A stretch of DNA of 64,000 nucleotides from Gracilaria domingensis. Taxonomy: Eukaryota > Rhodophyta > Florideophyceae > Gracilariales > Gracilariaceae. Below, one piece after another: positions 1,626-46,075 of this stretch. Within the stretch, counting starts at the first letter, position 1. Every line of letters begins with the position of its first letter. The position numbers and the translations under genes were made by a program. The notes under the pieces were generated by a model. That model saw only the letters and a list, made by a program, of their open reading frames with translations. It ran no database searches and was not told where the DNA came from. The stretch is taken from the NCBI GenBank assembly GCA_022539475.1, contig VCMS01000309.1:17478-81477 (forward strand), in the 5' to 3' direction.

Positions 1626-2222
1626 ACCTTTTAGAGATAGTCAAACATAAGAGTTGCCTTTATCGAAATGACCTGTTCCTATTACATTACTTATATTGTT
1701 CGTCCTTCTGTGGTTCAAATATGCCCCTTGAAATCCTACATCCTTTATCACTAATACCTGGCTAAGTTTTTGCTAGATGGAAAAGGGTCATTCCACATCA
1801 TTAAAGTGCACGATACTACTAACAAAACAAGTACAAAATTGTGATATTTCTGAAAAACTAAGCCTTTGCAATACTTGGGTCACCCGTATAAAGTAAAGTA
1901 AACCTTTTATGGGGCTTCAACCCTTAATGGAGGTTGTTTTACTCTTCTTGATTTCTAAGCTCATGTTGAAGATATTCATAGTTTTCTTTACCCACTTGAA
2001 CCCGTACATATAATTTATGACTAAATCATCCTTTCTTTACTGCAAATCAATGCAACAGCTTCTCGTCGTAGTAACTTTTTAAAACAGTGCTACAATACCC
2101 GTATATGGTCGTTCTTAGACTATTTTTATACTACGAAACACCTTGTGAACATCAATCACATCCTTCTCATTCGTATACCCACACCCATTTGCAAAACGAA
2201 CCCTTTCGAAAGCTTTCAAAAC
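1626..2222. other. AT-rich intergenic stretch upstream of the HAD gene
   Basis: There is no open frame of note. It presumably contains the promoter of the HAD gene starting at 2223, but no element can be assigned with confidence. Confidence 0.4.
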
Positions 2223-3154: not shown

Positions 3155-4063
3155 TCATGATTCATGGTGGTTTTTATCGTGCTGCTTTTCCTCGTAGCCG
3201 TACAACAGAGCCACCAGCATAATTGTCGAATGTACATCCTCCACGCTTTCGAACAGGTTGTGTACTCCACCCGGGATACAATCTTCTTTGACGTGAACGC
3301 CGTACACGCCTACCTCATGCAACGGCCCGTCGCTCAAAGCACTTCCGAACGTCACGACGTCATCCGTATCAATAAATCTCGGTTCATTATCCACAAGATT
3401 TGCTCCTCCGCTTCCTTTTGTGTATCGCTTGTCCACAATTTCGCAACTTTTATCGCCGGGATAGATAACAAACGCATCCATCTTCTGCAACAGGTCCCCA
3501 ATAGCAGAATCCACTTCTTCTCTGCACTGCCACAGTTTCTTGTACACGAAATTGGGAAGGCCACTATCACTTCTGGTCTCCACGAACCCCTTCTCATCAT
3601 CATTCACAATACCTTGCCTCCTATTCAAATCCCTTGCCAGGAACAGTAGTCCGTCAACAGTGTGGTCAAGGGTGTGATCATTGAATGCACCCTTAATTTC
3701 CCTCTCGTCAGAGAAACGCAGGAAAGCTCCATGATTCGCCGAGACACCAAACTTATAGTCTCCGAGTCCTTCCATTTTCCCCTCCACGTCGCCCACATCA
3801 CCCCCTGTGACAAGTCCGAAACCAACACGTTCGTCAATGAACTTCATACACTTCACAACTTCTTCTGGAATTGACTCTCCTTCTCTTCTCAACGTTCCAT
3901 CAACGGAACTTAATATACCGTAACCATTGGCATATATGAACTTAGACAAGGTATTGGGTGAAATTTCGGCCAAGTCTCTCTGTTCCTCTGCCATTTTTCC
4001 TGATACAGTTACCATACTGCCACAAGTACCGCATAGACAGCTGTATAGACTTCTCAGTTTCAT
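3155..4063 (-). CDS. HAD-like paralogue lacking the catalytic nucleophile (probable pseudoenzyme)
   Basis: The 302-aa protein aligns along its length with the HAD gene at 2223-3095; shared blocks include KCMKFIDERVGFG, DSGLPNF and SVEDVH. In motif I the paralogue's D-I-D-G-T is S53-V54-D55-G-T here, so the nucleophilic aspartate is Ser. Motif II TGRD has become TGGD (86-89), and motif IV has changed to FGSALSDGP. By HAD chemistry the first Asp forms the phospho-enzyme, so catalysis should be lost or greatly weakened; the frame is nevertheless intact. The start may be the first ATG (4063) or Met24 (3994), which aligns with the paralogue's start. A tandem inverted duplication followed by divergence is inferred. 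Confidence 0.75.
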   Translation of the reverse strand: MKLRSLYSCLCGTCGSMVTVSGKMAEEQRDLAEISPNTLSKFIYANGYGILSSVDGTLRREGESIPEEVVKCMKFIDERVGFGLVTGGDVGDVEGKMEGLGDYKFGVSANHGAFLRFSDEREIKGAFNDHTLDHTVDGLLFLARDLNRRQGIVNDDEKGFVETRSDSGLPNFVYKKLWQCREEVDSAIGDLLQKMDAFVIYPGDKSCEIVDKRYTKGSGGANLVDNEPRFIDTDDVVTFGSALSDGPLHEVGVYGVHVKEDCIPGGVHNLFESVEDVHSTIMLVALLYGYEEKQHDKNHHES

Positions 4064-5603: not shown

Positions 5604-6012
5604 GTTGAACAGCTATTGCAGTGAAAGGTGTATATCAACAATACGCTCGCTCTGGACGATACCAGAACGGATGCGAGCCTTTTAAATGGCGACTTACGCT
5701 GGGCACCCCCGCTTTCGGCAGCTCCTCCCAGCGCACTGCCAGTCTCGTCCGTGTCCTGTCCGTGGCCGCTCGCACGCTGATTGTACGCTTTAGAGTCGTG
5801 GAGTTCACGCAATGATGACTCACGTGAGCAATGGTCGCGCTGTCTAATCGTGATCTTCAAATGCTTTGCATAGTAGTCAAGAGTACACTCATTCACTTCC
5901 ATGTAGAGCCTACTCCCGCAAATACACGTGGACAGCGGCGCCAACGTACCGGCGGCCGGGTGTACCGAAATCACTGCGGGGCGGCGTGTTTTGGGAGATC
6001 CCGGGAAGGCGC
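5604..6012. other. Intergenic, upstream of the ParB-like gene
   Basis: A 124-codon minus-strand frame (5600-5974) touches the ParB-like start, but it shows no domain and is likely leader or promoter DNA. Confidence 0.35.
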
Positions 6013-6560
6013 CGGAATGTGGCCAGAACGTGCCCGCGGGCGGGAGGGGTCGGTCGTGTTAGGGTACCTACCCTAACACGACCGGACCCCCCGCCCGCGG
6101 GCATAAATCGCACATTTTCAAAAATCGTCCAAACGTGCGGGGGGGGGGGGGGGTACCCCACGCCGACCCCCCCGCCCGGGCATAAAATCACACATTTTTC
6201 AAAAAATCGTCCAAAACGTGCCCGCGGGCGGGGGGGTCCGGTCGTGTTAGGGTAGGTACCCTAACACGACCGACCCCCCCCCCCGCCCGCGGGCATAAAA
6301 TCGCACATTTTAAAATCGCAAATTTTTCAAAAAAACGTCCAGAACGTGCCCGCGGGCGGAGGGGGTCGGTCGTGTTAGGGTAGCTACCCTAACACGACCG
6401 ACCCCCCCGCCCGCGGGCATAAAATCGCACCTTTTTCAAAAAATCGTCCAAAACGTGCCCGCGGGCGGGGGGGTCCGGTCGTGTTAGGGTAGCTACCCTA
6501 ACACGACCGACCCCCCCCCCCCCTCCGCCCGCGGGCACGTTCTGGCCACATTCTGGCACC
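6013..6560. repeat. Array of five long GC-rich palindromes bracketed by inverted copies of one flank
   Basis: Near-perfect palindromes of about 73-82 bp lie at 6031-6103, 6219-6295, 6347-6419 and 6456-6537. A degenerate one with its centre deleted lies at about 6136-6183. Each runs from TGCCCGCGGGCGG through a G tract and CGTGTTAGGGTA to a symmetric centre. They are separated by AT-rich spacers of the type ATAAAATCGCACATTTT. The array is bracketed by GGAATGTGGCCAGAACG on the left (6014-6030) and its reverse complement on the right (about 6538-6554). This fits tandem head-to-head terminal repeats of a transposon. The downstream transposase frame reads through the right part. Confidence 0.85.
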
Positions 6561-9532: not shown

Positions 9533-9895
9533 GGGAAGAAGAACTGAACGAGAAACGACGACAAAGACTGCAAGGGAAGGGCGTCCGAAGGGTGAAGGAG
9601 GTCGAGCGACAGTCAATATCGACGTCTTGCTCAGAACGGAGAATATATTTTGAGTTTAAATCACGTGCTTTCGTTCAAAAAGGAACGTAGGTACACGTCG
9701 ACCTCAACACAAGGGTGTACTTCTCGTATTATCTACCACTGGTTATAAACCTGTGGTTTCCCAACGTTGTACGCTGTACACTTGTCCAATCTCGCACAGA
9801 AAAATAAATCTCTTCCCTTCGCCGCCGCCGCCGCGCCTCCGACGTCCGAACTTCCGTTACCGTCGTGAGCCATGCCATCGATATCATCGCGTTAT
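9533..9895. other. Leader region of the transposase gene
   Basis: No gene is seen. It holds a CCGCCGCCGCCGCG tract near 9821-9834 and leads into a chain of inverted repeats. Confidence 0.35.
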
Positions 9896-10314: not shown

Positions 10315-10351
10315 AAACCAAGTTGGTTTCTCGGCGATCTTGGATCTCTGC

Positions 10352-10689
10352 CTGTTCGGGATAGGCGATTCTGGTACTTGGTTGAGACATAGGTTTCTGT
10401 CTCGTTTATCGCATCTTGCGGTATGTTTGCTGCATGGGCATTCTCGGTGTCGTTGCTTGTGAGTTCTTGCTTCGAGACCTTTCGCGTTTTACGATGAATG
10501 GATTGCTGGTAATCTAACCGATCACTTTCCTTCTTCTTCTTCCTTTTGCGAGTTACTAGGTCCCTCGACTTTTCTAGCGCAACGTTTCTGTTTTGCTTTA
10601 TCAATGGTACGTTCCATCGCAATTCAAATGTTTCCAACGGAGCATTGACTAACTTATGGATACTTTCTGCTTGCGTATACAGGTAAACG
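10352..10689. repeat. Direct repeat, copy 1 (about 338 bp)
   Basis: Begins CTGTTCGGGATAGGCGATTC and ends with an ACAGGTAAA box. It is about 85-90% identical by eye to 10766-11094. On the minus strand copy 1 has a 132-codon Lys/Arg-rich frame (10296-10694), and copy 2 keeps a shorter one. The protein resembles nothing I know and may be fortuitous. Confidence 0.85.
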
Positions 10690-10758: not shown

Positions 10759-10765
10759 TTTCTGA

Positions 10766-11094
10766 CTGTTCGGGATAGGCGATTCTGGTACTTGTTTGGG
10801 ATATAGGCTAGATTCTCGTTTATCGCGTCTTGCGGTATGTTTGCTGCATGGGCATTCTCGGTGTCCTTGCTTGTGAGTTCTCGCTTCGACACCTTTCGCG
10901 GTTTACGATGATATGGTGGGCTGGTAATCTAACCGATCCCTTTCCTGCTTCTTCTTCCGTTTGCGAGTTACCAGGTCCCTCGACTTTTCTAGCGCAACGT
11001 TTCTGTTTTGTTTTATCAATGGTACGTTCCATCGCATTTAAAATGTATCTAACGGATCATTGACTAACTTATGGATACTTTCTACAGGTAAATG
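10766..11094. repeat. Direct repeat, copy 2 (about 329 bp)
   Basis: Second copy of the unit at 10352-10689, with scattered substitutions and small indels. It ends in the same ACAGGTAAA box, after which the two copies diverge. Confidence 0.85.
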
Positions 11095-11713: not shown

Positions 11714-12625
11714 TTGGCAAGGAAAGCCGGAAGTCCGGAAGAAAAGTTAGTGAAAAGAGACCGTGCTGTTACGGCAGACCCGACTTCGGGAGATCTCAGT
11801 GGAGCATCGAGTGATAGAGCCGTTGAAAACACGGAGGAAACCGCCGATATGGCGAGCCGACACGCCACGGTAAGTGGGAAGCAGCACAACGCTGCACAGG
11901 CGCGCACATTGCGCCAAGTGTCTGGCTTCGCCGGCGATCCACCTCCAGTGGAGGACAACAGCGCACGCGCCGGGCACGTGCTTGCTGTAAAGCTTGCAGA
12001 CGCCGAAAACGGAAATTCCGAATTCGAATCGGCAGCGCACAGCCGTGCAACGGCGCAGGCCTTACCACCAGCAGTGAGTGGCGAGACGGCGCCACGGCGC
12101 GCACAGCAGCACCACTCGCTGGCGCACCGCAAGGCGGACCGTTCACCCTCACGACGGGGGATCCCGCCGGAACGCCGGAAGCTCGCTGTTCGAGAAGACC
12201 AAAGTAAGGTCAGAGCCCGACAACACGGGGAGGAAAGCCAGAAATCTGGAAGCCTGAATGTCAGGAACACACAATTCTCACCGGGACCACCTGGCGTACA
12301 GAACGCACTGGCGTCAGGACGGAAGCCGTTTGGCAGCGACGCTCACGACTGGAAAGAAATCAACGACACCCCAGAAGATGGCACAATAACGGAACCGCAC
12401 ACTGAGCGGCGTGTCCTCGACAGGGAGTACGTTATGGACCGTCTGATTAGTCACGGCTACGCCTCTGATGAAGAGCTATTGTGTCGAGTCCTTTGGTACG
12501 GCTGTTCTTCTTCGAAGGATACACATGAGCCTATCGAGCATCTTCCTCGCTTTAAGGTCCTACAGTACCACCGTCGCACACGGACACCGATACCGGCTAG
12601 GCTAGACAGAGCCCAAGTGGGTTGA
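11714..12625 (+). pseudogene. Element A: 3' end of Ty3/gypsy pol with C-terminal chromodomain
   Basis: An open frame of about 300 codons without an ATG start, so it is the tail of a longer polyprotein. Most of it is a charged, low-complexity linker. The last ~75 residues are a chromodomain: REYVMDRLISHG, CRVLWYGCSSSKDTHEPIE, then HLPRFKVLQYHRR. The order (charged linker, chromodomain, stop) matches element B, whose tail at 25215-25502 aligns with it (EDGTI/DDGTV, EPIEHLPR/EPVEHLPR, both ending Q..VG). In chromoviruses the chromodomain is the integrase targeting module. Everything upstream (gag, RT, most of IN) is missing from this copy, so the element is 5'-truncated. Confidence 0.75.
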
Positions 12626-13142: not shown

Positions 13143-14947
13143 TTACGCGCCGGACGGCCCAGCACCTGGGATACCCCCACTATCGGGAGCCCCGGAGAAG
13201 CGCTGTGCCGCTATCGCTTGCAATTCCGACTCGTCGGTCACCGTATCGGGAACGGCCACTCCCACGCTTCGAAGGAAGTCGCGAATGACCGCCGCTCGCG
13301 GAGTGAGAGAAGAACTGCCGCCCCCGGCGGATGCTACGTCCTGAGCACACGGGCCGGTCGGAGCGGGAGCCGCTACAGCAGGTGGGACCACAACCACGAC
13401 GTCGTCGTCGTCGCCCAAAGCTTCGGGCTCTGGTTCGTCCTCCACGCCCTCTGGGCTTCCCTCATCCATGGGGTTACCTCCCTCGGCAGGGTCATCACCG
13501 TCATCGTCGACGTATACGAACCCACGCTAGTGCCTTTCCGGGATATGACGCTCCTCTCGGCGGCGACCAGCCGCCTCAGCGGGACCAATTATCTCCCAAA
13601 TCCATGGGTCAAATATACTAAGTCGCCGGCATTGACGTTCGGTCCCGGAGAACGGTCCGACTGCCGACGAACCCCGTCGGAAACCTGACTACCAGGCACC
13701 TCATTCTAGTCAATCTGGTCAATGACGTCCACCAACTCGGTGGCTTCGCGCGCATTGCGGACGGAGTCGAGCACATCCGAGAGGTTCAGAGCTCGGATCG
13801 CTCGCCGGATGAGCTCTGGGATGAACCAAACTCGGTACGAATCAAAGGCCTCGATGAGGAGGAAAGCTGCGACACGGATGGTCCATTCTGTTGTCAGAAT
13901 GCTCCACAAGCCGCGAGGCGGATCGTTCATGAAATACGAGCCTATGTACGTGAGGCAGGGCGGTAACTCCACATGACACTCTCGTGGGACTTCGACCGCA
14001 GGCCAGAATGACGGCAGCGGCAGGTATCGTCCAGTATGGGAGTGACGCGCGATGCGCTCGACCTCCGTGCACTGGTACGGCACCAGCTCCCCGAAGCGGG
14101 AACGTCATTTCCTCTCGAATCGGAGGCCTTCATGAAACTGAGACCGTGCAGGACGGCGAAGGAACCGGAACTCGGCACGAAGAATGGGCCGCGCCCACAG
14201 GATCAACTCCTGCTGCGGCTGAACGGTGTCCGAGTATCGGTCAATTTCGTCCAACGCGTTGGCTAGATGGTCGACGTAGCCGACCTCGACGAAAGTTCGG
14301 TAACGTGCAACGTCATACAGGTACTGTGCCGGCAACGGATGTTCGTTCGGAGCTCGGAAGTGTCGCGCGTACCCAATGCGGGCCATCTCATTCCGAGCGA
14401 ATTGTCTGGTCTCGTTTCGACCCACGAACAGACAACTCGGGGTGACCGCAACGCGGGCGATCCAGTCCCATGAACGGGTAACGTCAGCAGGAAGCCCACC
14501 AGGGAGTTGACCGTCGACAGCGTACGAGTCGACGAGCTCGGTATCCCGAACGGCCTCGGCGTCAAGCCAGGGAGCCTGGGCGAAAAGGAAACTGTGCCGG
14601 TGCGGATCCCGGATGCGTAACGCGCCAGCGGTAGGCCATCCACCCAGCGTAGCTAGCATCTTGGCGTTGAACCAATCCCATACGGGCGCGGGACCAGCCT
14701 GAGCTGGAGCATGATCCTGTCCGGAAGAACCCTGCTGAGAGACAGCCGCCGACTGCGGAAGAGGTACAGACCGGAACGGCGTGTTGGAAACTTGCATGCG
14801 TGCCGTCGAGGACGGAGGGCCGTTCGGTGTGTTGGAAATCGCGGGAGGGCTCGTGATGGCGAGGTTCGCTATTGATACCGGAGGTGTTGGTGGCTCCGAA
14901 CAGTTCTCGGCAAACCCATCTTGGAAGATTTCCTTATATACCTCCAT
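13143..14947 (-). pseudogene. Element A: antisense accessory gene between pol and 3' LTR
   Basis: Runs opposite to pol. The ATG at 14947 opens 280 codons to a TGA at 14105-14107. The same frame continues as clear coding to a stop at 13706-13708, ending PELIRRAIRALN...REATELVDVIDQID. Past that stop the frame continues with DRSPGP...AGDLVY (about 13657-13613). A frame slip then leads to FDPWIWEIIGPAEAA (from about 13613). After a stop at 13527-13529 the frame continues to an acidic, Pro/Ala-rich linker and RAAVIRDFLRSVG near 13298-13260, ending at 13143. These blocks align with element C (PELIR...QID) and element B (DRSPG, DPW, RAAVI). No known domain is recognised. It is a decayed copy of a protein of about 600 residues. 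Confidence 0.7.
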
Positions 14948-15004
14948 CGCGAGGCGTATCGAGCCGACGGAGTGGTTGTCTCAGCCTGAGAAGGGGGAGA
15001 TGTA

Positions 15005-15855
15005 AAGCAAAAAGCCGTTTGTGAGGATACAGTGAGGTGTTTTTCATAGTTTGTTGATCCGTTACCGGCTTCGACACCTCATGTTAGGAGAGGCTACTGT
15101 AGTAGTGGCTATATTTTGGGGTATGCCTAGGAAGGGTTGTGTTTCTGCACACGTGTGCTGAGTTGGCCCGATACCGGGTGCGCCGTGGCAAGCCCGCCAC
15201 GGTTTCGTACGTGTAGGATGTTGGCCGGCAGCGCTGGATAGTTAGATATTTCTAGTTGATATTTTCAAGTGCCCTATATAGGTGGCGGCACTTGCCACCA
15301 CCTGACGGGAAGTAAACCTCAAGGAGGCTTCTGGCTCTGACTTTCTTGCCGCCTGTGAACGGTCTTCGTCTCCAATCGGGCAAGCCGCCGCAATTCCGGG
15401 CTAGTCATCCGACCTCTACCACTGAGGAGTTCTAGACCTTCATCAGGGCACCTTTTGTTGTTTCTTTGTTATTATTTCCGTCATACGGCTCTCGTTTCTC
15501 TGCCCTGTTATACAGGTTTTTGCCCACTAGTATCGGGACTTATTCCCGTTTATCACGAGCTAGTGCTCCGCAGTGCGGCTCGTTTGCTGATCCCCTGTTG
15601 CTCCCTACTGTTAGGCTGGATATCTCCACTCGCTGTGGCTCGCCGGAACAACCGGATATCTACGCCGATTCTTCCCCTTCACCTCTGACTACACGCTCAG
15701 ATCGGGACCACCCGGACTTACACCCGGCATTGCCCTGGCTCTATCAGAGGGTTCCACTGCTTCATCTACCCCTATAAAGAGCAGATTTCGAACACCCTGT
15801 CGGTGCGCTTTCCGCGACGCGGCTCTTGTTTGCCCATTCGTGGGATTGCACCACA
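15005..15855 (+). repeat. Element A: 3' LTR (left end approximate)
   Basis: The right end is set by TGGGATTGCACCACA (15841-15855), nearly identical to the ends of LTR D (28633-28647) and LTR B (17468-17483). The GGGAAGTAAAC box near 15309 is shared with LTR B and in part with C and D. A TATATA motif lies at 15275-15280. No primer binding site follows, as expected for a 3' LTR. The left boundary is not resolved. Confidence 0.6.
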
Positions 15856-16889
15856 TGAATTTAAAATTATTGCTTTTGGACCTCCCTTCAAATTCTAGAA
15901 TTGCCGTCACAGGGATATTAGTATACGCGGCGATGCCGGAGAATGATGACACACATTATGAATAACTGGAGAGGTTGACCCCTTCATGGGTGTACTACAT
16001 ATTAGAAATAGTAGTTATAATGTGCACAACATAGCCGGTGAGTCACACACGTGTGGGAAATCTGCACCCATTCTTTGGGGGTATTTAGAGATTTATCGTA
16101 GAATATCTAATAGCCCTTTTCAAATAAAGAGTTTTCGCTTTAGAGCTAAACCGTTGTTTCCAGAGTGTTACCACATTTTGAAATAAGGTTCAAGCTTATA
16201 ACGTGTACAAGTAAGGCCAAGAAGGAAGGACACTTCATGTTTTTTGTGTGCCAATTCTGTATGAAAGCCTATCTTTCATACAAAATCGAGTGGTGTGTTC
16301 TATAAAAAGAACATTGTGTGCACGGTGCGCACAATTCTTTCTTGTTCATGCAGTTAAGTAGCGTCGAATAGCTCTCTTATTTGTTCAAAGCAAGCCAACT
16401 ATGCGCGACGTACTTTGCTGACTGTATGAAAATGACTGCTGTCAAACGGCGGATTTAAAACAAACAGAAAAGACGCTAAGCGTCTCGCGTATGCTTTTGG
16501 CTGCGCTGCAAAAGCTATGAAAAAATTAACAAATTGTGATCGGAAGCTGCTTGTTAGCAGCTAAGATCAGTACGACCGTCGTCAGAGATCGCGGTTATGC
16601 CGCTCTCGGGTCTTGACATTCTGCTATGATGGCCACGCAGAAGATGATTACTAGCCAAAACAATTTAAGATTCGCCAGCTATACGCCTTGAATTCACCGC
16701 TAATGCGGTGCCTGTGCAAACTTTAGTAATGCCTTGTATAAGCTTAGCCTTTAAACCGTCGGCTGGGAAGCGCACTGTTGTTTCCTTTCTTGGTTTGAAA
16801 TAAGCCCATATTTTAACGTTTTGCTGTATTCTACTTAAACAGCGCGTTGCCGCAAATCGTCTCTTAGTTCAAAAAGAGAGTGATTATTC
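15856..16889. other. Stretch between elements A and B
   Basis: No gene is recognised. Part of this may belong to a longer 5' LTR of element B; short inverted motifs occur around 16480-16620. Confidence 0.35.
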
Positions 16890-17922: not shown

Positions 17923-19395
17923 ATGGTCTCTGGCAAACGAACGAGCCCTTCGAAGGCTCTCTCGGTTGGTGCAGAGTTGCCTCCGCGTCCGCGGTGTGTG
18001 CCCGAACCCCTTGAGGGAGAAGGAACGAAACCCGGAAGCCGGAAGCAAGCAAAGAAGTTGTCTGATGCCCCAGTGGGGGGCACTTCATCTACTACTTTGG
18101 AGGTCCATGCTCCCGTTGTTGCGGCTAAAGAGGCACTCTTCGTGGAACTAGAGGCTCAAATACGTACACTTGAGGCCCAGACGGCAGTCATGAGAAGTTC
18201 TCATGCTGCCCTCACGACTGAGGTCGATACACTTCGTTTGAAGGTAGACGCTGCCCTCAACGTAGTTGTTTCTGAAGGTCTACGTATATTACGGAAAGAT
18301 ATCAACGCCCTCTTGGAGGTTCTTCAAGGATATCCCGCATTCACAGAGGAGGTTGACAGGAAATTCATTCGGATTCTTCGCCGTCTTGAGACGTTGGAAG
18401 CCCCCATCCGCGAGGATGATGGCGCCGCTGCCGCACTTGCGGGAGGTTCTCGTCGGACACGTGACCGAAAGTCCGAGAAGAATCGCCCTAAGAAGAGGAA
18501 TGTTTACAAATATGACTCGGAATCATCACAGTCGTCTGTTGTTTCAAACCGTTCAGAGGGTGCGTCATAGTCGAGCTCGTCAAGTGACGGTGAGCGCCGT
18601 GCTCGCTCTACGCGTTCGCGGAGCTCTACGTCCATCTATGGTGTTGCCAGTACCCGTAAACGGGGTAGGAAGCACTCAGGTTTGAAAGAATTGGAACCGA
18701 CGAATCTTTTGTTTGAAAGGTTGCTATCTTACCGGTATTACCGTTTGGAAGATTCTAGTTTGAATAGAACGCCCCATGGCACGGGTGAGGTAAAGAACTG
18801 CATCAAGCGCATGTCCTTAACCTTTCGCAACCAGTTGTTTACTGGTGAGGATCCCATTCTGGTGCTTGACTTTCTTTCACGCTTCGTATCGGAGGCTGAC
18901 ATCCTCGGAATGAGTGAGGGACAATCTTATGTCGCACTACCGTATTTTCTACGTGTACAAGCTGAAGATCAGGTCAACTCTGTAAGAGCTTCATTCCAGG
19001 CCTCGGAAGGAAGGGTTACCTGCTGGTCTGAAGCCGTGCAGTATTTGTTGCGCTCGTATGCGACAAACACCTCTATCGAGGAAGCTGTTACCGCGTTGCG
19101 GGAGACGAAACAGCGCCCGAAGGAATCGGAGACCGAGTACTCGGTACGCCTGAATAAGGCACTCCACTTTTGTAGCAACGTTTACTCGTCTAACGAGCGC
19201 TGTACACTCTTTATCAACGGATTGAATCCGGCTATTCGTACTCTGGTTTCCAAGCGACGGGAGGACCGGAAGAACACTACCTATCTGGAGTTAGTGAAGT
19301 ACGCGAAGGCGGAGGGAGAGGCCTTGCACAGACGCACCGGATACCGGGTTTCAATCAAGGCGTTGCACCTCGAAGGAGGGTCTTCATCAACTTAA
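17923..19395 (+). pseudogene. Element B: gag (capsid-like) gene with one in-frame stop
   Basis: The ATG at 17923 opens a frame that is clean to a single TAG at 18568-18570 and then open again to 19395, about 490 codons in all. The N-terminal part is charged and has a predicted coiled coil (about 60-140, heptad-like LEAQIRTLEAQ), then an Arg/Ser-rich stretch. The second part (FTGEDPILVLDFLSRFV, then an alpha-helical region with FINGLNPAIRTLV) is typical of Ty3/gypsy Gag capsid domains. A short spacer follows before the nucleocapsid frame at 19616. With the one stop the copy would make only the N-terminal part unless read through. Confidence 0.75.
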
Positions 19396-20598: not shown

Positions 20599-21195
20599 GC
20601 GTCCGCTAACCTGGTACCACTACCCGCTCCTCTACAGGATTCCTCACCTCCGAAGGAGTCGCCGAAGCTCCACGTAGCGCCTGCAATTTCTATTCCGCTG
20701 GGATCCCAGGATTGGGTTGATTTTACAACTGCTCCGCGTGGTTTGCGCGTTGTTCAACCCTTGAACTCTTTATACGACAAGTATCAGGTCGCGTTGGCTA
20801 ACGAAGTTGTTCAAATCAACAGCGAGCACCCTTTTCGTTATGTTGGCCAACTTTGGCAAGAAGCCCCAGTATCTGGTGAAGAACCAAGTAATTGGTACTG
20901 TCTTACCGCACCCTAGATCACTGATCCCCACAAAGGTGACTGCCGCCGAGATGCTCTGGATTGCTGAAGAACGCAGTGGTGGGCTTCACCCTAAGGAAGG
21001 GGAGGGAGACTCGTCGTGCTCATTTCGTCGAACCCGTCTCCGACGGTTGAAGACACGAATGACTGGGAAGTTAGGATCGTTCCTACGAGTTATGACAAGG
21101 TTGACCATATCAAGGAGTTGGAGGAATTGAATCTCGGTCATGTACCGGTTTCACAGCGTGGGAAGTGGCGCAACATGTTGTGAGAGATTACATCA

Positions 21196-23435
21196 ATGTG
21201 GGATGGTTCCCTCGGAGAGGTTTCAACTATGAAACACCGCATTGACCTCCTGCCGGCGACGAATCTGATTGCTCAGCACCCTTACAGGGCAGGCCCGAAA
21301 GCACGGGAAGAGGAAGAGTTTCAGATCAACAAAATGCTTCGCGCTGGCGTGATAGAACCGACTCAGTCGCCGTGGGCATCTCCAGTTGTACTGGCTCCGA
21401 AACCCGATGGTTCCTGGCGCTTTTGTATCCACTATCGTCGCTTGAACGATGTCACCGTCAAGGACGTGTACCCTATACCTCGTATGCACGAGTATATCGA
21501 CTGGCTTGGCGATGCTACCGTGTTCTCTACTTTGGATGAAAACTGGGGTTACTGGCAATTACCAGTTAGACCGGAAGACCGTAAAAAGACCGCGTTCACC
21601 TTTCATTGAGAACTACACCGCTTTAAGCGTATGCCGTTCGGGTTAACGAACGCCCCCGCTACGTTTCAGCGTGCTCTGGACATTTTGTTGGCTCGCTTTA
21701 AATGGCCGAGTTGCTTGGTATACCTCGATGACATCGTCGTCTTTTCCAACAGTTTGGGCGGTCACCTCGAACATGTTCGCGAGATAATGACCGCTTTGCG
21801 GGATGCGGGAATCACTCTCAAGTTGAGAAAGTGTGAGTTTTTCACTGACTCAGTGAAATATCTCGGCCATGTTATACGTCCAGGACAGCTGCTGATCGAA
21901 GAAGCTCGCACGAAGTCCCTCAAAGAGGCGAAGCACTCCACCACACAGACAGATCTACGCTTCTTTCTGGGACTCTGCGACGTCTATAGAGGGTTCATTT
22001 CTCGCTTTGCGAACATCGCGGGACCGCTCAACGAACTCCTGAAGAAGGAACAACCGCCGAAATTGGGACCACTTAGCCCCATGCAAGTGGAGGCATTCAA
22101 CTCTCTTAAAGAGGCTGTTACCACGATACCCGTGTTGGCACTACCGAAGAACGAGTTGCAGTACACCGTGGATACGGACGCGAGTGATTTCGAGATTGGC
22201 TGCGCACTCTTTCAGACAATGCCCGAAGGGGAAAGCAAACCAATCGGATATTGGTCACGCACGCTCAATGTGCATACACGCAACTACTCAGTGTCCGAGA
22301 AAGAGTGTCTCGCCATGGTCTGGGCTTTGCAGACGTTACGATTATATATTATGGTTGTACACTTTACCGTCCATACGGATCATTCCGCATTGCGTTGGTT
22401 AATGTCAGCCGCGGAACCTTCCGGACATTTAATGCGTAGGCGTCTTCGGCTTGCAGAATTTGATTATGAAGTTACCTACAAAAATTGTTCGCTTAACGCA
22501 CAGGCGGATGCTCTTTCAAGTTTGCGAAAGGAAGGCGAAGCATTACCCGTCGATGACGATGATGAAGATATACCCTGTTTCCTCATTGAGGAGGGTGATG
22601 AGAACTATGACATTTTGTCGGAAGACATTTGTGATGATTTGATCGTCGCAGGCGGTGAAGATCCGGAATCGGGTACATTCGTCCCCATTTCTCCAGAGGA
22701 GATGGTGAGAGAACAACAGGCTGACACGTTATGTACGAGGATACGCGCCCAGATTAATGGCAGTGCGAAGATCCCCTTTGGGGTAAACTCACAAGACCAC
22801 CTCGTCAGAGTGGTTCGTTCTAACCCACAGAAGATGCTTCTTCACTCCTTACAAGTAAGGGTACTGCACCTCTCGCATCACTCGCGGATGGCTGCCGATC
22901 GGGGTGCTAAACGGTTATACACGACACTACGTCTGAATTTCTCCTGGCCCGCGTTAGCGTTGGACTGCTACACCACGGTGAACTCGTACACACATTGTGC
23001 TCGCGAGCGAGTGAAGCAGCGTCGCCATGCGAAGAAACTAACGTTATTCCCGCAAGGAAGCCGTTGGAGTTTATTGCCATCGATATACTCGGTGAGTTCT
23101 TGCGCACTTCCCGAGGTAATCGGTTCTTACTTGTCATTACGGACAGATTCTCAATGTTAGTCCAGACAGTTCCGTTAAAGAATATCACAGCACGCAAAGT
23201 TGCGGAGGCATTTGTTAGCCACTGGGCAATGGTCTACGGTCCGCCGGTTAACCTCCTTTCGGATAATGAGCCGCAGCTCACTGCGAAATTCTTCCAGGAT
23301 ATGTGCCGGATACTCGACGTGAAGAATCTCTTCAAGACGACATATCATCCCCAATGCAATGGCCAAGTCGAACGGTTTACCCCGACAATGCTCTCCGTGT
23401 TGCGGGCTAATACTGTTGAACACCCAAAGACATGA
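21196..23435 (+). pseudogene. Element B: reverse transcriptase, RNase H and integrase core
   Basis: RT motifs in order: VVLAPKPDGSWRFCIHYRRLN, STLDENWGYWQ, a TGA at 21607-21609, then MPFGLTNAPATFQRALD and the catalytic YLDDIVVFS near 21720. RNase H follows: VDTDASDFEIG, YSVSEKECLAMVWAL and HTDHSALRWL. The integrase part has an H-H-C-C-like segment (VRVLHLSHHSRM, then decayed), a frame slip near 23060, then IDILGEF, LLSDNEPQ and GQVERF, which carry the D, D, E residues. The frame is broken by the TGA, the frame slip and a stop at 23435. The order RT-RH-IN plus the later chromodomain identifies a Ty3/gypsy chromovirus-type element. Confidence 0.85.
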
Positions 23436-23708
23436 GATCTCTACACGGTAAGTCACTGTGTCGTATGCGTACAATGCGCAGGTTCACAGAATAACTGGGT
23501 TGTCACCGTTTGAGCTCGTGGTCTAACGGACACCCTCGCCAATTGCGGTTCAACCCTCAGCTAAGCTGGATACGTTACCGTCTGTACGGAATCATTACCT
23601 GCAATGGAAACAGTGGTTATCCGCAATGGTACCTGCTGCCAGGTCGTCAATGGCGAAAGCACAACAAGCTTACAAGCAGAGCTTTGACGCCCGCTACCGC
23701 CACTGAAG

Positions 23709-24425
23709 GTGGGAGACCTGGACTTTGTCAGGAAAGAAAATTATAACTCTGAGAAAGAGAAGCGTCACAAGATTTCACCCATCGCCGATGGTCCATACCG
23801 CGTTATCAGCGTGAATCAGGACACATTCGTACTGGAAGTTGGTGATGCTCATGAGCGTTTTTCCCGCGATCGCGTTGTACAGGGACCAACCTTTCGTACA
23901 GAAGTCGTTTCGGATGCACAGCAGGAAGCTGGACAGGCAGAAAACCGAGGAACCTCGTCGCAGAACCCTACACGCACTGCGGGTCTCCGTCACCCAACAC
24001 ATGGTCTCGCAGATGTACCGATTATATCCTCGCAAACCGAGGTATTGGAACATACACTGCTGGGGAAATCGCGTTTCACGGCGTGCATTACAGCGTCAAC
24101 AGACGTGATGACTGCCCTGCATAGCGCTCCACCTAAGGAGGGGAAGGGCAGATCAAGCGTTGTCGCAGAGAGTGATTCACCGGTGTCGCTACCGTCGGAG
24201 CACCGTGGTACACAGAAAAGTAGTGAAAAAGATACAGAGTGGCCTCAGGACACCGTCGAAGACGCAGATGCTTCGGACACCACTGTCAGTGGGAAGGATC
24301 TCCCGTTGCCGCTTATGGAAGTCGCGAAGGACGCGCAGCAGTCGGCCGCTGTCGCGCAGAACTCTGCGGAGGATATACAACCTTCCGCTAAGGATCGCGA
24401 CCTTTCAGAAGAACACCGCACGTAA
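23709..24425 (+). pseudogene. Element B: integrase C-terminal GPY-type domain and charged linker
   Basis: Begins in the integrase C-terminus (LDFVRKENY, HKISPIADGPYRVISV, then FVLEVG...ERFSRDRVV), which is the GPY/F module of Ty3/gypsy integrases. It then passes into a Ser/Glu/Asp-rich linker. The low-complexity coding continues in another frame to about 24770. It connects to the chromodomain frame at 25215. Confidence 0.7.
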
Positions 24426-25214
24426 CGAACGCACTCGATGCTGTCCCAAGATACTGGTAATACTAACCCATACAGAGAATTGTCGCAGGAACACGCGCCC
24501 ACCGTCGCACGGACGCACAACGCGGAGCATGCTCTTTTTCGCGAAGTTCCATCGGCAAGGCCGGAAGGTGATCAAGAACACCGTACTTCTCGGCAGAGCA
24601 AGGCTACAGAAAAGATGAATACTGTACCACGGAGTACTACGGATGCACAGTCGCCCCAAACTGTCGCTGACTACCGCCGCACACCGCCTTTGCAGACGCG
24701 CACAAAGGAAGTCACGGCTGATCTTGGTACTAACGACGACAGAGCAGGAGAGATAGAAGACGGTGGCTGAAGCGAAGATCAAGCACCCCGGTTGCCGTAG
24801 TGGTGCAGTAGACCGTTGCACCCAACCGTGGGGAAGTCGCAAATCGCATTTCATGACGTTTTGCGAAGTAATGACGGCACACCCTTCGTTGGAGATACGG
24901 ATTACGGCCCTGATTTAGGGATACCGCACACTGCAACCGCAGGAGCGCTTGTGTACTAAAAATCGAGTGGCGCGCAGCGCGCGCCACACAGTGGGCCAAT
25001 CATAGCGCGTGGCACCACCACCGCGAAACGTCGCTTGCGGTTGTGAACAATCCGCCTCCGCGTCCGATTTAACCTTCAGGATCGGGAAGCACCGCAGGAA
25101 CTAGCCGTTCGCAGACCCGCCGAAGCGGCGAAGCTGATTTAGAAAGCGCAGAAACGGGAAGCGAACACTCAGCAGAGGACAAGTCTACCGCCAAGGGCGT
25201 CAGGAGAAACGCAC

Positions 25215-25502
25215 AGCACCGCTATTGACGATGGTACGGTATCGCCGCGGCGCGCTGACGACCCTTCGCAGAAAGAGCTCGAGCGGGGCGTATACTCGAA
25301 AGAGTTCGTCGTCGATCACATCGTGGGGCACAGTGGGAACCCAAAGGGGAGTGTTCAGTACCAGGCACGCTGGTATGGCTATCCGCCTTCGCGGGATTCA
25401 GATGAGCCCGTGGAGCACCTACCCCGATCGAAGATCGTGCAGTACTACCGTCGCACTAACACGGCGTTGCCGGTTAACCTATACCAGGCAATGGTCGGTT
25501 AA
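25215..25502 (+). pseudogene. Element B: C-terminal chromodomain
   Basis: In the frame ending TAA at 25500-25502 the protein reads DDGTV..., VYSKEFVVDHIVGH, VQYQARWYGYPPSRDSDEPVE and HLPRSKIVQYYRR. This is a chromodomain with the aromatic residues of the fold (Y/F at the start, W-x-G-Y) and the terminal helix. It aligns with the tail of element A and, in its last part, with element C. It is the 3' end of pol. Confidence 0.8.
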
Positions 25503-25954: not shown

Positions 25955-26659
25955 TTACTCGGATTCCTGCTGGTCCTTCGCGCTCGCAAGCTGCGCTACC
26001 AGTGCGTCGCGCATCTGCGAGACGTCGCCAGGTGCCGCGTCGGAGAGACCAGCGTCGCTGAGAAACTGAGCAATCACTGCAGCCCGTGCTTCGTTGGATA
26101 ATCCCGCGTTCACGACTTCCTTCGGCGTAGCCGACGCCACCATCGCAGACGAAGCGACAGTCTCCGCTGTAGTTGGAACCGCCACAGGCGTTAGAACTGG
26201 AGCTACAACGGGCTCGGGAATCGCTAGAGGCGCAGAAGGAACATTCACTAGAGTCGCGAAGACCGCGTTAGCACCCGCCTGGAGACCTGGCACTGCTGAA
26301 GCAGATACTGCCCCCTCCACCGGAGCTGCCGCGAAGTCTTCGTCGCCGTACTCGTCACCTTCATCTGGAGCGTCATCAACCATGATGTTTTGGTCCCCAA
26401 TAGGTTGGAAGAACTCATCAGTTATGTTGAAGCCCGTAGAGTGCCCCGGAGAGATGAATCGCTCGGCATTCCGAAGAAGTCCCGCCTCGGCGTTGGTAAT
26501 CGGCACCCGTGTCCAGGGGTCGTAATAGATGTAATCCCCCGACAGTGGGGACCTGCGACCCGGAGACCGATCAATAGCGGAATCGCCTTCGTCCCGCGCG
26601 TTTTGCGAAAGAGGAATCTGGCTCCAGTCGACTCCATCAATCACTTGCAAGAGGCACAT
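25955..26659 (-). pseudogene. Element B: antisense accessory gene, 5'-truncated
   Basis: A 234-codon frame opposite to pol. It starts at the region matching QID of copies A and C (LLQVIDGVDW) and then has DRSPGRRSPLSGDYIYYDPW and AEAGLLRNAERFISPGH. These align with copy A (DRSPGP, GDLVY, DPW, AEA). An acidic stretch (DDAPDEGDEYGDED) and an Ala/Val/Pro linker lead to RAAVIAQFLSDAGL...MRDALVAQL near the C-terminus, matching copy A. The first ~400 residues found in A and C are absent: the element ends about 40 bp further on, where host kinase DNA begins, and the 3' LTR is also missing. The present ATG is probably an internal Met. Confidence 0.65.
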
Positions 26660-39871: not shown

Positions 39872-40550
39872 GTGGTCCGAATCCCTGAAGCGCGTATCTC
39901 AAAATTCCCGATTACGACGGCCATTGACGAGACTAAACAAATTAACTGCGATAAATAAATAATAATTAAAATTTGAACTTATTGGGTTACTAATAATTGT
40001 ATCGTATATTGAACTTTCTGGCAAAAATATTGTGGACATGAGTCATGTACGAAATATACACATTTTGAACAGAAGCTTGCTGCTTCACAACCAAATGATG
40101 CCGTCGAATCGATTGCTCGCAAAATCGACTAGAAATCCTGATTAAAGAGGTAGAAGGAGAATGATATCCTGGAATCACTGGTTGTTGCCCAAAACTTTGT
40201 GCTTGGCGTTGTCCCCGGACGTGGTATTGTTGAACTATCAAAGGGTACCACTATAAGAATTTTTTTCAAAACTGTGAACGTAACTTGAAGGCGATTGGAT
40301 GTTTTAGATCCTCGTATTACATTCATTAAGCCATCCGCGCGACCTCCATTTTGGCACCGTGCATATTAAATTATCAATTTTTTCAGTTTTGTGAATGTCG
40401 TATGAGGTGTGAGATAGTACGCGAGAGCGTCTACTCAATAGAATGTCCGGGAACGGTAGTGTGGATCTGCGGCACTCGTAGTGTAAAGCCGTGTGAGCGG
40501 CCGAGTCGGAAAAGACGGTCGTTGAAGGTGCGGAGTAGCTCACGGCACTC
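39872..40550. other. Intergenic stretch left of element C
   Basis: No gene is recognised. It includes the flank beyond the end of LTR C. Confidence 0.3.
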
Positions 40551-40854
40551 TGTGGTGAAACCGAGTACGGAAACACGCGCATCCCAAAAAGGTACCACGC
40601 GCCTAGCCAGAGAGCCGGTGCAACGGTAGTGATATTGCTGCAGAAGAGCTTGTGCAGGTCTCAGACAAGCTGAGTTCCTACTACGACTTAGGATCCGTGC
40701 CACGGGAAACTAGACGAAGTGCCTAGTAGGAAGCACCTTGGTTTACTGTCTTGGGAGCTAGCGCTGACCTTGCGAAAATAAATATCTAGTTTGGCGCCGC
40801 CACACACGTGTACGACTTACCGACTACAGGGCACTAGCTGCCACTGGCATACAC
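40551..40854 (-). repeat. Element C: 3' LTR (inner end approximate)
   Basis: On the minus strand it ends CTCGGTTTCACCACA at 40551, close to the CACCACA ends of LTRs A and D. Its AGTAAACCAAGGTGCTTC box (about 40728-40745) matches AGTAAACCTCAAGGAGGCTTC of LTR A. It lies where the 3' LTR of element C should be, just past the antisense gene. It is shorter than A, so it may be internally deleted. Confidence 0.5.
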
Positions 40855-43064
40855 GTGCACTACCACTACTATGTCTACTACAACAACAGCATCCGACTAG
40901 CGGCTTTCCTTTCAACATCACCACTGCAACCGTCACGGCTCAGTATCTTACAGACCCCCTTCTTAGCTTGTTGCCCGTCCTCGGGCGACCTCCCGTCTGA
41001 AACGTTCGAATCCGTTTTCGGTGTCTATTTGATACAATGCAAAAAGCGCTTATCTTCCTCCTTCCTCGCTCCACTTCATACTGTCTCTCTTCAACTCACC
41101 GTCCGTAATGGTGCCATACCTTCTCTTGATCCCTTCCGGTTCCCTCGTGTCACCACGCTACACGTCGGAGAGCATTGGGTCAGTCCTGATGCGGAGTTCG
41201 ATCATCGCCGTATCCCGGGCATCGTTCCTTTCTCCCGTCGTTGCGTATGCATTCCGTATCCGGTCGATGAGTATGTTGACCTCAACGGCGAATGGTGTGA
41301 CGCCAATCGTTTCTCCGCGATACTGGTTCGTCCGACTGTCGCGTATCTCACCGGCAACAGGCGTCTTCGCGATGACTCTTGGGAGGCCCGTTGCGGACAT
41401 TTGCGCATCCATATTGACGAAGGTACTCGCATTAACGCCGTGCACTCCGATATCGGTATTCCAGTCGACATGCCGTTGATACGGTGCCCGCAAGAGCGTG
41501 AGTACCAACACTCACTAGCAGTCATCCTTCGCCGCCTGCAGGAACAGTACGCCGATCAACCCCACACGGCCTCCTTCCTCCACAAGACCACGATCTTCTC
41601 GGTCTCATCGCGTTGCCGCTAAAGTTCGATAAGTTTTATCTTATCGCCGACCGCGGCCGGTGGGGTGACGATATTGGCGACGAAGCGCGCATCCGAACTG
41701 GACATTATTTCTTCTTCGGCTGGCACAATCAGGAATTTCATGTCCTACTAGGTCGCAGTAGTACTGCGTCCGAAACGGCAGGGACTGTATTTAGAGGTCC
41801 CTGTACGGGAGCAGATATTCACCGTCTCCCGGTATCTATGCGTGCCGACGCCATCGATTGCGGCTTACTATACGGAAGCCATCGTCACCGACGATCGGAT
41901 GGCCTTCCTCGTCCGCACCGTACTCAAGGTAGAGTGGGCTGTATTGGTCTGTTTTTCCTTTCCGTAGGCTGCTAGGTACGGGCTCCCGATGCATTTGAAG
42001 TTCCATGACTGGCGTCCTGCCATGGATCCGGATCTCGAAGCTCCGGCATGGCGGCTGATGCGACTTCCATGCGAACTAGTTCGCTTCATTCGTGGCCTCG
42101 GGGTACGGAACATCGTGAAGGGAACCGACTTCGGAGCAAGGGAGGTCGACGCACTCCTTGACTACGTGGTGCAGATTGATTGGGAGAAGACAGCGGGACC
42201 TGGATACCTTTGGTAAGACTACGATGCTGACTCAGTTCCCGGCATTCCCCGTCATCCGGCGAAGCACGAAGATGGGAAGAAATACCGAAACGACCCTTCA
42301 TTCCTACCGCAATCGGAGTGGATGGATGCAACCCGCGATCGAGCGCCTCATTACTTTCCGCAAGAGGCTGGTTTCATTAAAAAATGTCTCCCGTGTGGCT
42401 ACATTGTTCAACCGGAAGCGGTAGAGAAACAAGACGAGGAGACGCCAGCTATAGAAATCGTTTTGGCTGGGACTCCGACTCCAGTTCCTGCTCCTCGGTA
42501 CACCGTGTCACGGCGTGTCGCGTGCTCCTCTATTGAACCGGAGATGGACACGGCGCTGCGTCACGTCCACGAAAGGTTCGTCACCACTGCTGCGCTTGAT
42601 CTCACCGAGGATGGAGTTCATCTCTCACAGGAGTTGTACGCCGCCTACCGTTCGCTCAACGATCGGTGCGTTGCGGTGGGGGCGCATACGTCGGATATTA
42701 TGTCCGAAGCGCTGAAACGTGCGTCCGGTTTGGTCGAGTACGCAAGCGTTGGCAGCACAACATGAGCCGACTAGATCTCTTCCGCGCAGCGGTGGTTACT
42801 CACTTTCAGAACATTGTTTCTGTATCACAGAGAAGCGCAGAGACCGTTGTCGCGGAGGCCACAAACTCGTTCAGCGTAGAACCGACGGACGCAGGTTCCC
42901 TCCTTAGGCGCCTTCGCCGCATCCGGGATGCGCTAGTAGCAGAAGATCAGGCCACAATTCAAAGTGCAGAAACGGGTGCGGGACCAAGTCCGGATGAAGA
43001 CAGAACGAACGCTCCTGCAGCCCACGAAGAGGATAAAATAATACCTAGTAAAGAGGCTCAATAG
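40855..43064 (+). pseudogene. Element C: antisense accessory gene between pol and 3' LTR
   Basis: Runs opposite to the element's pol (minus strand). A 255-codon frame (40855-41622) has no clear ATG start. It contains VDEYVDLNGEW and VRPTVAYLTGNRRLRDDSWEARCGHLRI, which align with VDSYAVDG and VTPSCLFVGRNETRQFARNEMA of copy A. After frame changes near 41620 and 41900, the frame 41989-42216 has PCELVRFIRGLGV...AREVDALLDYVVQIDW, aligning with the PELIR...QID block of copy A. A TAA at 42214 is followed in the same frame by 42217-42765 (YFPQEAGFIKK and onward). The last frame (to 43064) contains LFRAAVVTHFQNI, like RAAVI..FL of A and B. It is the longest surviving N-terminal half of the family. Confidence 0.65.
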
Positions 43065-43779: not shown

Positions 43780-46075
43780 CCGCTTCGAAGCTTCTTGCTT
43801 CCGAGTTGTTCGGCGTTTAGTACCCCCTTTCTTAGGTTGGGATGCGTCCTCGCGAGGCATTCGACGGAAGTACTTTCCGCAAAGTTGTGGGAGATGTTCG
43901 GCCTCGGTTCCCATGTAGACTTCTTGAAACCGTACTACTTCACTCGAACGAGCTCTTCACCGTCTTCGGCTGTACCGTGGCCGGTGATCTTCTCCACGAC
44001 CCATTCTTCTCCGTCTCCGGGGGAGTAGAAGCCGTGGTCAAGTGAGATGTAGACGGAGTCTCGTGTGCGGCCACCGGCGTTTGGGAGGTACTGTCTTCAA
44101 CAAGAGTGGATCCTTCCGGCGGCGGTGTAGACCTGGCCTCGGAGTGTGGCGCTTCTAAGTGAACGTTCGGTTCCACATTGGCTTTACCATCATTGGAGGT
44201 ATCAACTGAGTTCTCCCGCTCCTCGGAAACAGGAGGGGTGGCCGATACGGGACTAGCTTCCGTGACGGAGCCCGGGGCCGCACCCTTTTCCGAAATGGGA
44301 GCGGACGCCACCCTCACACGGTCAATACTGACAATGTTGTGTAACCCGTCAATATTCAGTGCGACGATAGTGTCGGTAACATGAACGACCTTATACGGGC
44401 CTTCTGAAGCCGGCAACGATTTCTTGATGATATCCTCGTGTTCGATACAGTTCTTCTTCCAAGGCGGAGCGTCGAAGTAAACCATATTCACTTCCTTAAA
44501 GGTTTTAAGTGTACCGTATCCAGGAATCAAGGGATGCTTTGTAGCGCTCCTGTGCACTGCCTAATTTGGTGTAGGCCAGCTTGATTAGTTCTGATATGCG
44601 GGCACGTGTTACGCGACGGGTCTCTGCTGTTGTCAGGTGGAGAGAGACTGTTTCTGGGAGATCTGACGTTGGTTCGTCGAGCACAATTCTGGGCGGGTGC
44701 CGCGTGACGGGGAGTTCGAAAGGAGTTAATCGGGTCGAACGGTGAACTTGTGGGTTGTATCCGTACACCAACGGTCGGACTAGCTTGTCCCAGTCTTTCT
44801 GGTGTTCAGATGCAAAGTGCCGCAAGCGGGTTTCTAAAACCTTATTAAACCTTTCGGCTTGTCCCTTCGTCTGCGGGTGATACGCCGTTGTGAGAACGTG
44901 CGTAATACCAAAGTCGGCAGTGAGAGACTGGAAACACTTGGCGACGAACTGCAGGCCGTTGTCAGTGAGTAGATAGGTAGGAATGCCGTAAGGGTACACT
45001 CAGTTCCCGAGAAAGGCGATCGCGATATCAGTCGCCATTGTCTCCGACAGCGGTATGGCTCTAGTGAGTTTTGTGAAGCGGTCTGTTATCACCAGTATGT
45101 ACTTCTTTCCGCGTCCGATTTTCGGCAAAGGACCTAATATATCCATAGCTATGAACTCAAAAGAGCCCGTTGCCGGGAACAACTTCAAGCGCTTCTGGTT
45201 CTTGAAGTGGGTTTCGCGGACTGCTCGGCACGGTTGACACGTAGAAACGGTCTCAAGCACATGCTGTGACATGAAGGGCCAATAAAAATCGCGACGCAGG
45301 GTATAGTACGTCTTGATCGCGCCTGGGTGTCCAGCCAAACGTTGGAAATGAGCCAGTTCGAGAACTCTTTCCCGTAGGGACTCCAGTACCACTCTCTGTA
45401 CAGCTCGGTCAATCGGCGAGATTCTGCGCAGTATCTCAGAACGGTTGTAATCAGACTGGGACTTAGGGTCTCCCACGGATTCGGCTTTTGCATTGCATTG
45501 CAGAAGGGATCTTTCGCCTGAGCGGCAAGGAACTCCCCGACCGTTATAGGAGTGGAGTCCGGTTGTCCCGGGATGGTTGTGAATACATCTAGCGGCTCCC
45601 CGTCGTCGGTGATCGCAGGCCAGTTGATCAAGGCGTTCTCTATGATTTCACAAGTACATCTGCGACGGCCTATTCCGTGTCGGTATCTATCTCATTCACT
45701 AGTAGGCAAGGAATCTCATCCTCCAAAGGTGTTTCTTCTTTTTCGTTAGTTAGCATCAGCGAAACTGCATCGGCAGGGAGATGCTTAATACCGGATCGGT
45801 ATTGCACCTCGAAGTCAAACTCGGCAAGGAGTAGGCGCCATCTTGCAAGCCTTCTCGTATCATCGGTTATATTGAGGAGCCGAGGCAAATCGTTGTGATC
45901 TGTTCGAACAACAAACCTTTGCCCTTCCATGTATGTTCTAAGGAGAAGAATGCTCCATACTTTTGCAAGACATTCCCGTTCAGTGGCACTGTAGTTCCTT
46001 TCCGGGGCGGTCAGCGAACGGCTCCAATATCCAATGGCGCGGTAATCTTTTTCATCTTCTTGCTGCTGAATTCAG
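43780..46075 (-). pseudogene. Element C: Ty3/gypsy RNase H, integrase and chromodomain remnant
   Basis: From 46075: RNase H (IGYWSRSLTAPERNYSATE, ECLAKVW, RTDHNDLPRLL), then an acidic linker. The integrase has HFQRLAGHPGAIKTYYTLRRDF and CQPC of the zinc-binding domain, AMDILGPL, a TGA at 45000-45002 where relatives have Trp before VYPYGIP, LLTDNGLQF and GQAERFN (D, D, E). The GPY module (EGPYKVVHV, VSIDRVRV) and a Ser/Thr/Pro linker follow, then EAEHLPQLCGKYFRR, the last part of a chromodomain. The chromodomain start is lost. RT, protease and gag are missing beyond the palindrome at 46094. It belongs to the same broad family as elements A and B but is more diverged. Confidence 0.75.

Follow-up and report, generated by a model that had tools for sequence, protein, structure and literature searches.

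A stretch of 64,000 nucleotides from contig 309 of the 77.9-Mb, 680-contig genome of the red alga Gracilaria domingensis (hereafter the window) raises the question of whether three diverged Ty3/gypsy elements, A, B and C, carry a common gene on the strand opposite to pol and, if so, what such a gene would do for them. The sequence-only reading of the window had placed antisense genes between the pol end and the 3′ LTR at 13143–14947, 25955–26659 and 40855–43064. Open frames exist at all three places, but none is intact: the B frame covers one third of the gene, and the C frame opens mechanically within an LTR (40408–40952). Read from their sequences, all three derive from a single element-borne gene of which they are broken copies, such that what was first seen were the remains of larger genes. 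The features of the three elements in the window are as follows.

11724..12625, + strand: element A pol 3′ end (blastn to the intact A copy L069)
12149–12622, + strand: element A pol chromodomain-like tail (tblastn of the L069 chromodomain tail, 66% identity; Pfam Chromo in L069 pol)
13146..14944, − strand: element A antisense gene, broken copy of a 610-aa frame (tblastn and genome copies)
14990..15000, + strand: element A polypurine tract (sequence; junction likewise in L010 and L022)
15001..15856, + strand: putative start of the element A 3′ LTR, TGTAAAG..., with an open outer end (sequence; aligns with L010 as far as an N gap)
15928..16102, + strand: putative element B 5′ LTR piece (78% match to L070 9–182)
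17923..19395, + strand: element B gag region, two frames (ORFs; the A gag region matches window B at 53%)
21184..25502, + strand: element B pol, broken, with RT/RNase H and integrase (ORFs, Pfam, tblastn)
25191–25499, + strand: element B pol chromodomain-like tail (tblastn)
25958..26659, − strand: element B antisense gene, residues 488–721 of 721 (81% identity to L033)
40408..40952, − strand: element C 3′ LTR (86.7% to the proven 555-bp LTR of the contig 37 copy)
40953..40962, − strand: element C polypurine tract (match to the PPT/LTR junction pattern, 2 mismatches, 0 expected)
41161..42806, + strand: element C antisense gene, broken, residues 3–545 (tblastn, 51–57% to the L056 and L052 proteins; genome copies)
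43905..46065, − strand: element C pol 3′ part, broken, with RNase H end, integrase and chromodomain-like tail (Pfam, tblastn)

Element A is present as its 3′ end only (11724 to about 15856), in the order pol tail with chromodomain-like end, antisense gene, polypurine tract (PPT) and LTR, where the PPT/LTR boundary is placed by analogy with the proven junction of a C copy and is thus putative. Its antisense gene aligns to residues 1–598 of the intact A protein (14944–13146, minus strand; residues 1–445 at 91.9% and residues 442–598 at 84.9% by tblastn) and is interrupted by stop codons in frame and by a shift of frame. Element B begins here with an LTR piece near 15928 and continues through gag and pol as far as 26659, the point at which the similarity to the intact B copies L070 and L072 ends; it retains only the C-terminal third of the antisense gene (residues 488–721), and the N-terminal part and the 3′ LTR are missing. 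The piece at 15928–16102 is read as part of the 5′ LTR since, with the PPT junction set by L033, the matching part of L070 (9–182) falls on the LTR side. Element C is oriented opposite to A and B and comprises the 3′ LTR, PPT, antisense gene and 3′ part of pol. Its antisense gene is broken and aligns to residues 3–545 (41161–42806, plus strand), and the common start of three intact C proteins, MPQ, lies later than the mechanical frame start in the LTR. Gag was assigned by position throughout, with zero Pfam matches over the cut-off in three gag-region frames.

The window also contains remnants and frames of other kinds. To the left of element A, a 322-bp direct repeat (10347–10668 and 10761–11083) is 91% identical, with starts 414 bp apart, and at 5957–6620 G/C-rich blocks that contain C runs and G runs form nested repeats, both inverted and direct. 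Two large minus-strand frames match transposases, namely a 1075-aa frame at 6389–9616 (Plavaka transposase, E 5.9e-18) and a 922-aa frame at 54709–57477 (Transposase_21 (tnp2), E 6e-12, plus DUF1258). A broken reverse transcriptase at 34432–35726 (minus strand) appears by eye to be of the non-LTR type, its frame at 34432–35067 giving a weak RVT_1 match below the cut-off (E 1.6e-5), and two neighbouring frames at 2145–3095 (plus strand) and 3155–4063 (minus strand) both match the HAD-like Hydrolase_3 (E 1.1e-11 and 2e-4).

Elsewhere in the genome the antisense gene is intact, with a single open frame per copy of about 610 residues in A, 721 and 651 residues in two B types, and 628–827 residues in C. 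Genome searches that used the window's three frames as queries returned at least 138 A matches (138 of 930 candidates scored), at least 162 B matches and at least 151 C matches, many of the short C rows covering the N-terminus or LTR only. Over the matched stretch, 88 of the 138 A matches listed are stop-free, as counted by eye. A fourth group, D, with frames of 660 residues, emerged with a homologue query whose 73 rows are partly of the A and B types, D itself being placed by protein match. At C16:341630–343411 and C69:381425–383206, an A-type and a C-type antisense match lie divergently about 0.7 kb apart on both contigs, and these pairs may stem from the duplication of a single stretch in which two elements are neighbours.

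The C copy on contig 37 is a complete, recently inserted element that carries the antisense gene. Its two 555-bp LTRs (136336–136890 and 146304–146858) are identical and flanked on both sides by a 5-bp GTTTG target duplication, and between them lie a gag region, pol with a chromodomain-like tail that narrowly misses the Pfam cut-off, and an antisense frame of 628 residues. Counted inwards from the LTR junction, this frame opens at about 60 nt and its shared ATG follows at about 200 nt. The LTR pair is proven in this one C copy, the PPT being recognized by sequence, and the A and B pairs were not recovered.

The antisense gene occupies a defined place beside pol. In the four copies followed at length (L069, L071, L072 and L073), it lies tail to tail with pol at 0.4–0.7 kb from the pol end, an order shared by A, B, the second B type (B2) and C; in a fifth copy (L070), an N gap and then another element follow beyond the antisense gene. 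The chromodomain end of pol is found in the convergent place at 19 of 20 B loci, a set that includes the locus in the window, and the sole exception is the copy with the N gap. For A, at least 102 of 150 pol ends have a tail-to-tail antisense partner among the matches listed, 91 of these 102 at a distance of 1400–1500 bp from the matched antisense stretch, while 41 of the 138 A antisense matches are without a pol end among those listed and four neighbouring pairs among those listed are in another arrangement; seven rows from the homologue query that gave D supplemented the A list. In a census of integrases, C-like members (at or below 64.5 bits) have an antisense match in the convergent place in at least 14 of 21 cases, with none among the matches listed in the other 7, compared with at least 1 of 129 above 64.5 bits. 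This census drew on 101 of the 151 C rows, 43 of the 138 A rows (one twice) and 44 of the 162 B rows, with none from D; the C rows left out are mostly short N-terminal or LTR-only, and the omitted antisense rows on the census contigs revealed no further convergent match by eye. As to intact copies that lack the frame, which would count against the sequence-only reading, 48 of the 150 A pol ends have no partner among the matches listed (138 of 930 candidates scored); the A and C-like census lists being incomplete, loss of the gene in some copies is possible.

The elements that bear the gene group together by reverse transcriptase. The RT sequences of A, B, B2, C and the element beyond the L070 gap fall on one side of a branch with 100/100 support, the other side of which is formed by five other Ty3 elements of the genome; these five have no antisense gene among the matches listed, and an antisense gene of its own was not seen in the element beyond the gap. 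Pfam places RT, RNase H, H2C2 and core integrase in Ty3 order in L069 and L071 pol, and the chromodomain PF00385 exceeds its cut-off at the pol C-terminus of A (L069), B (L072) and B2 (L073), the C pol end (L071) reaching 24.7 bits against a cut-off of 25.1. Because pol ends in a chromodomain, the elements are, by domain content, chromoviruses and not members of Tat/Retand.

Although strongly diverged, the antisense proteins form one family. A, B and relatives from outside the genome share an alignable core of some 350 residues with the motifs RT.GE, L(R/K)AEFR, ER..R...G, ELPP, YD..RLW, SPGR and DPW, not all of which are invariant. Comparison of the A/B and C profiles with hhalign aligned 210 columns at a probability of 96.9% (E 1.5e-10), whereas 60 column-shuffled and one reversed C profile reached at most 0.1%. 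By profile, the A/B and C antisense proteins are homologous far beyond chance. The proposal that three elements carry real, homologous antisense frames between the pol end and the 3′ LTR is thereby borne out, and the A/C and A/B core motifs from which it had been drawn lie inside the aligned regions; the C-terminal RAAVV..F of C falls outside the significant profile alignment and is unsupported.

Outside G. domingensis, a relative in Gracilariopsis chorda reaches 66–70% to A in the best A match, and one in Agarophyton chilense is at 35% to the G. chorda protein; the A. chilense protein P0009 reaches 43% at most among 85 scored places of the genome. Seven further relatives come from protein sets without a named organism. 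No relative of C was found at E≤0.01 in a set of 5.8 billion proteins, so C is known here from this genome alone.

We asked of the antisense frame itself whether its codons are maintained. Between diverged copies, differences at third codon positions outnumber those at second positions by a factor of 1.4 to 3, the excess being smallest in the most distant pairs. Since NG86 dS is saturated in these pairs (undefined, or from 1.8 up to more than 3), the analysis relied solely on this third-position excess and on the ratio of replacement to silent variants (N/S) in recent copies. Fifteen distinct recent A copies have 9, 6 and 25 variants at the three codon positions, corresponding to 14 replacement and 26 silent codon variants and an N/S of 0.18 of random expectation. 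For 17 distinct recent B copies the variants number 41, 22 and 79, with 60 replacement and 69 silent codon variants and an N/S of 0.30 of random expectation. The broken A copy of the window gives 0.21 against L010. These ratios refer to an expectation in which all base changes are weighted alike, and the recent copies were picked by protein similarity to the window query, which introduces a mild bias toward few replacements. As read from the codons, the antisense frame is under purifying selection, even when near-identical copies are compared. A chance open reading frame is ruled out by the codon-position pattern, the shuffle control and the recent-copy N/S. Together, profile homology, the RT tree and the recent-copy N/S uphold the view of an element-borne protein kept for long in diverged elements.

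The same data bear on the idea that the antisense RNA is what matters, through dsRNA, silencing or interference, with the reading frame incidental. Complementarity to the genomic RNA does follow from the arrangement, and excerpts of PMC7264820 put the idea forward for plant elements, but with the codon-position pattern, an N/S of 0.18–0.30 in the antisense frame and intact frames of ~600–800 aa in many copies, we regard it as very improbable.

In a second alternative the protein, instead of regulating transcription, would counter a host defence such as silencing, or aid particle or cell-to-cell transfer, as a fast-evolving arms-race gene. The low identity of the antisense protein is in keeping with this: A and the B types share 38–42% (tblastn), compared with 72–78% for RT, and A and C share 22–30%, compared with 64% for RT. 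However, gag diverges almost as fast (50–53% between A and the B types, 26% between A and C), such that no special acceleration of the antisense gene is needed and its divergence fits a gene inherited together with the element. In addition, the recent-copy N/S lies well below 1, so no broad positive selection is seen, and the protein is without a membrane segment. We therefore consider this alternative unlikely, though it is the strongest of those weighed.

None of 14 antisense proteins contains a hydrophobic or membrane segment, their maximum 19-residue hydropathy being 1.09–1.66. A retroviral Env-like third gene was rejected, given the opposite strand and the lack of a transmembrane segment. 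The C-terminal tail is acidic in most members and weakly so in some (L052, net −4), and A and B lack a simple NLS pattern, as do 8 of 9 homologues, whereas three C proteins have one (KRLR). The core is mostly helical in two weak AlphaFold2 models (pLDDT 57.9 and 59.2; pTM 0.49 and 0.61), the first of which has no fold match in the PDB or BFVD at E≤0.001 and the second none in the PDB or VIA; the models are too weak for the claim of a new fold.

Searches of Pfam (E≤10), PHROGs and PDB sequences yielded just weak scattered matches that we read as chance, the best antisense match in the initial Pfam scan of the window frames being 0.0016, below the cut-off. TRP28 (PF04195) has 0 matches at E≤1 in the six-frame genome and none at E≤10 in hmmscans of 11 and 4 family members, leaving a TRP28 kinship unsupported. 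The family thus matches no protein family found and appears, on these comparisons, to be new.

These searches also weigh on two proposals for where the gene came from. A captured host gene that still performs a host-like job would have a precedent in plant elements, for which transduction is described in the available parts of PMC7264820, but no Pfam domain is recognized in the protein and repeated element copies dominate among the matches listed, and we give this proposal hardly any credence, although these lists leave room for a single-copy host relative. An independent mobile or viral gene, inserted once in an ancestor and hitch-hiking since, would be consistent with the failure to find a relative among known element proteins. 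Set against this, no terminal inverted repeats surround the gene in A and C copies, where short imperfect inverted pairs occur solely inside the antisense gene or its spacer; there are zero transposase or viral family matches and, in a scan with profile A2 only, no relative in viral contigs; and selection acts in the element copies. As an account of the present gene we judge such hitch-hiking improbable, although an insertion of this kind may describe the origin of the gene.

The reading that we prefer, and to which we give even chances, is that a chromodomain Ty3/gypsy clade carries an antisense third gene, with a promoter on the LTR side, a trans-acting accessory or regulatory product and a switch based on transcript interference. 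The third gene itself is shown: it lies on the opposite strand, between the pol end and the PPT of the 3′ LTR, in a family that spans element groups A, two B types, C and, by protein match, D. Transcription would start from a promoter right beside the 3′ LTR, either a TATA-like box or the LTR U3 itself. Inside the LTR junction, TATATA is found at 63 nt in A and TATTTAA at 65 nt in B, and these boxes are candidate promoters between PPT and coding region; no such box was found in L056, the sole C copy with its junction located. As the box in A overlaps the opening codons of the frame, translation there may start further downstream. Antisense transcription would then run against the genomic RNA; with about 2 kb of complementarity between the two transcripts, synthesis of either should hinder that of the other. 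The product would be a soluble, mainly helical protein, often with an acidic tail, that acts in trans in the element's own cycle, its accessory or regulatory role being suggested by position and selection. Conceivably, the interference itself serves as a switch between accessory protein and genomic RNA. Such a gene would operate much as HBZ does in deltaretroviruses, or gene 23 in the maize element Grande, with no kinship to either implied.

A more specific proposal, which we put forward tentatively as a possibility somewhat short of even, is that a red-algal chromovirus lineage gained a dedicated antisense gene once, long ago, with its own TATA promoter between the PPT and the ORF and a new protein family that controls a switch from genomic RNA to accessory-protein expression and back, an HBZ-like strategy evolved independently outside retroviruses and plant Tat elements. 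Given the relatives from protein sets without a named organism, the lineage with the antisense gene is perhaps wider than the red algae.

With HBZ of HTLV-1 and other deltaretroviral antisense genes, the algal gene shares its antisense orientation; no kinship is claimed. HBZ is smaller than the algal antisense protein, which has no recognized domain. The HTLV antisense promoter sits inside the 3′ LTR, according to the available excerpts of PMC7264820 and PMC11963269. In other respects the algal elements resemble chromoviruses, with a gag position, RT, RNase H, integrase, C-terminal chromodomain, PPT, LTRs and a 5-bp target duplication, and chromoviruses are known from red algae, as stated in the accessible portion of PMC3605345.

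The closest arrangement is that of the plant aORFs (Retand, Grande gene 23 and RIRE2), which in the excerpted text of PMC7264820 and PMC11963269 are antisense, lie between pol and the 3′ LTR and have a role reported as unknown. Like the Tat/Retand aORF-3R, the algal gene is antisense to gag-pol and lies between pol and the 3′ LTR, and the correspondence in place drawn by the sequence-only reading thus holds (PMC7264820, in the part available). Kinship with the plant Tat/Retand genes is not supported: in the excerpts of PMC11963269 the Retand lineage is non-chromoviral and 97% of its clusters encode TRP28 (PF04195), whereas the algal pol carries a chromodomain and the searches for TRP28 gave no match. 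The algal protein is either unrelated to the plant aORF proteins or diverged past recognition. Boty of Botrytis cinerea also has an antisense gene, brtn, between pol and the 3′ LTR (PMC7264820, same excerpts), and brtn and Grande gene 23 are likened to the algal gene by position alone. The antisense position was therefore already known from plants and a fungus, while the protein family and the chromovirus setting appear to be new, the open-licence literature searched describing, in the parts available, no such third gene for an element that is red-algal or has a chromodomain. Plants, a fungus and retroviruses all have antisense genes next to the 3′ LTR, with a transposon role reported as unknown in the excerpts of PMC7264820, and the algal gene adds a large example, intact in many copies and under measurable selection, in a chromodomain lineage. 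If such genes were acquired repeatedly at this one place, that would speak for a regulatory value of the place as such, next to the 3′ LTR and convergent with the genomic RNA.
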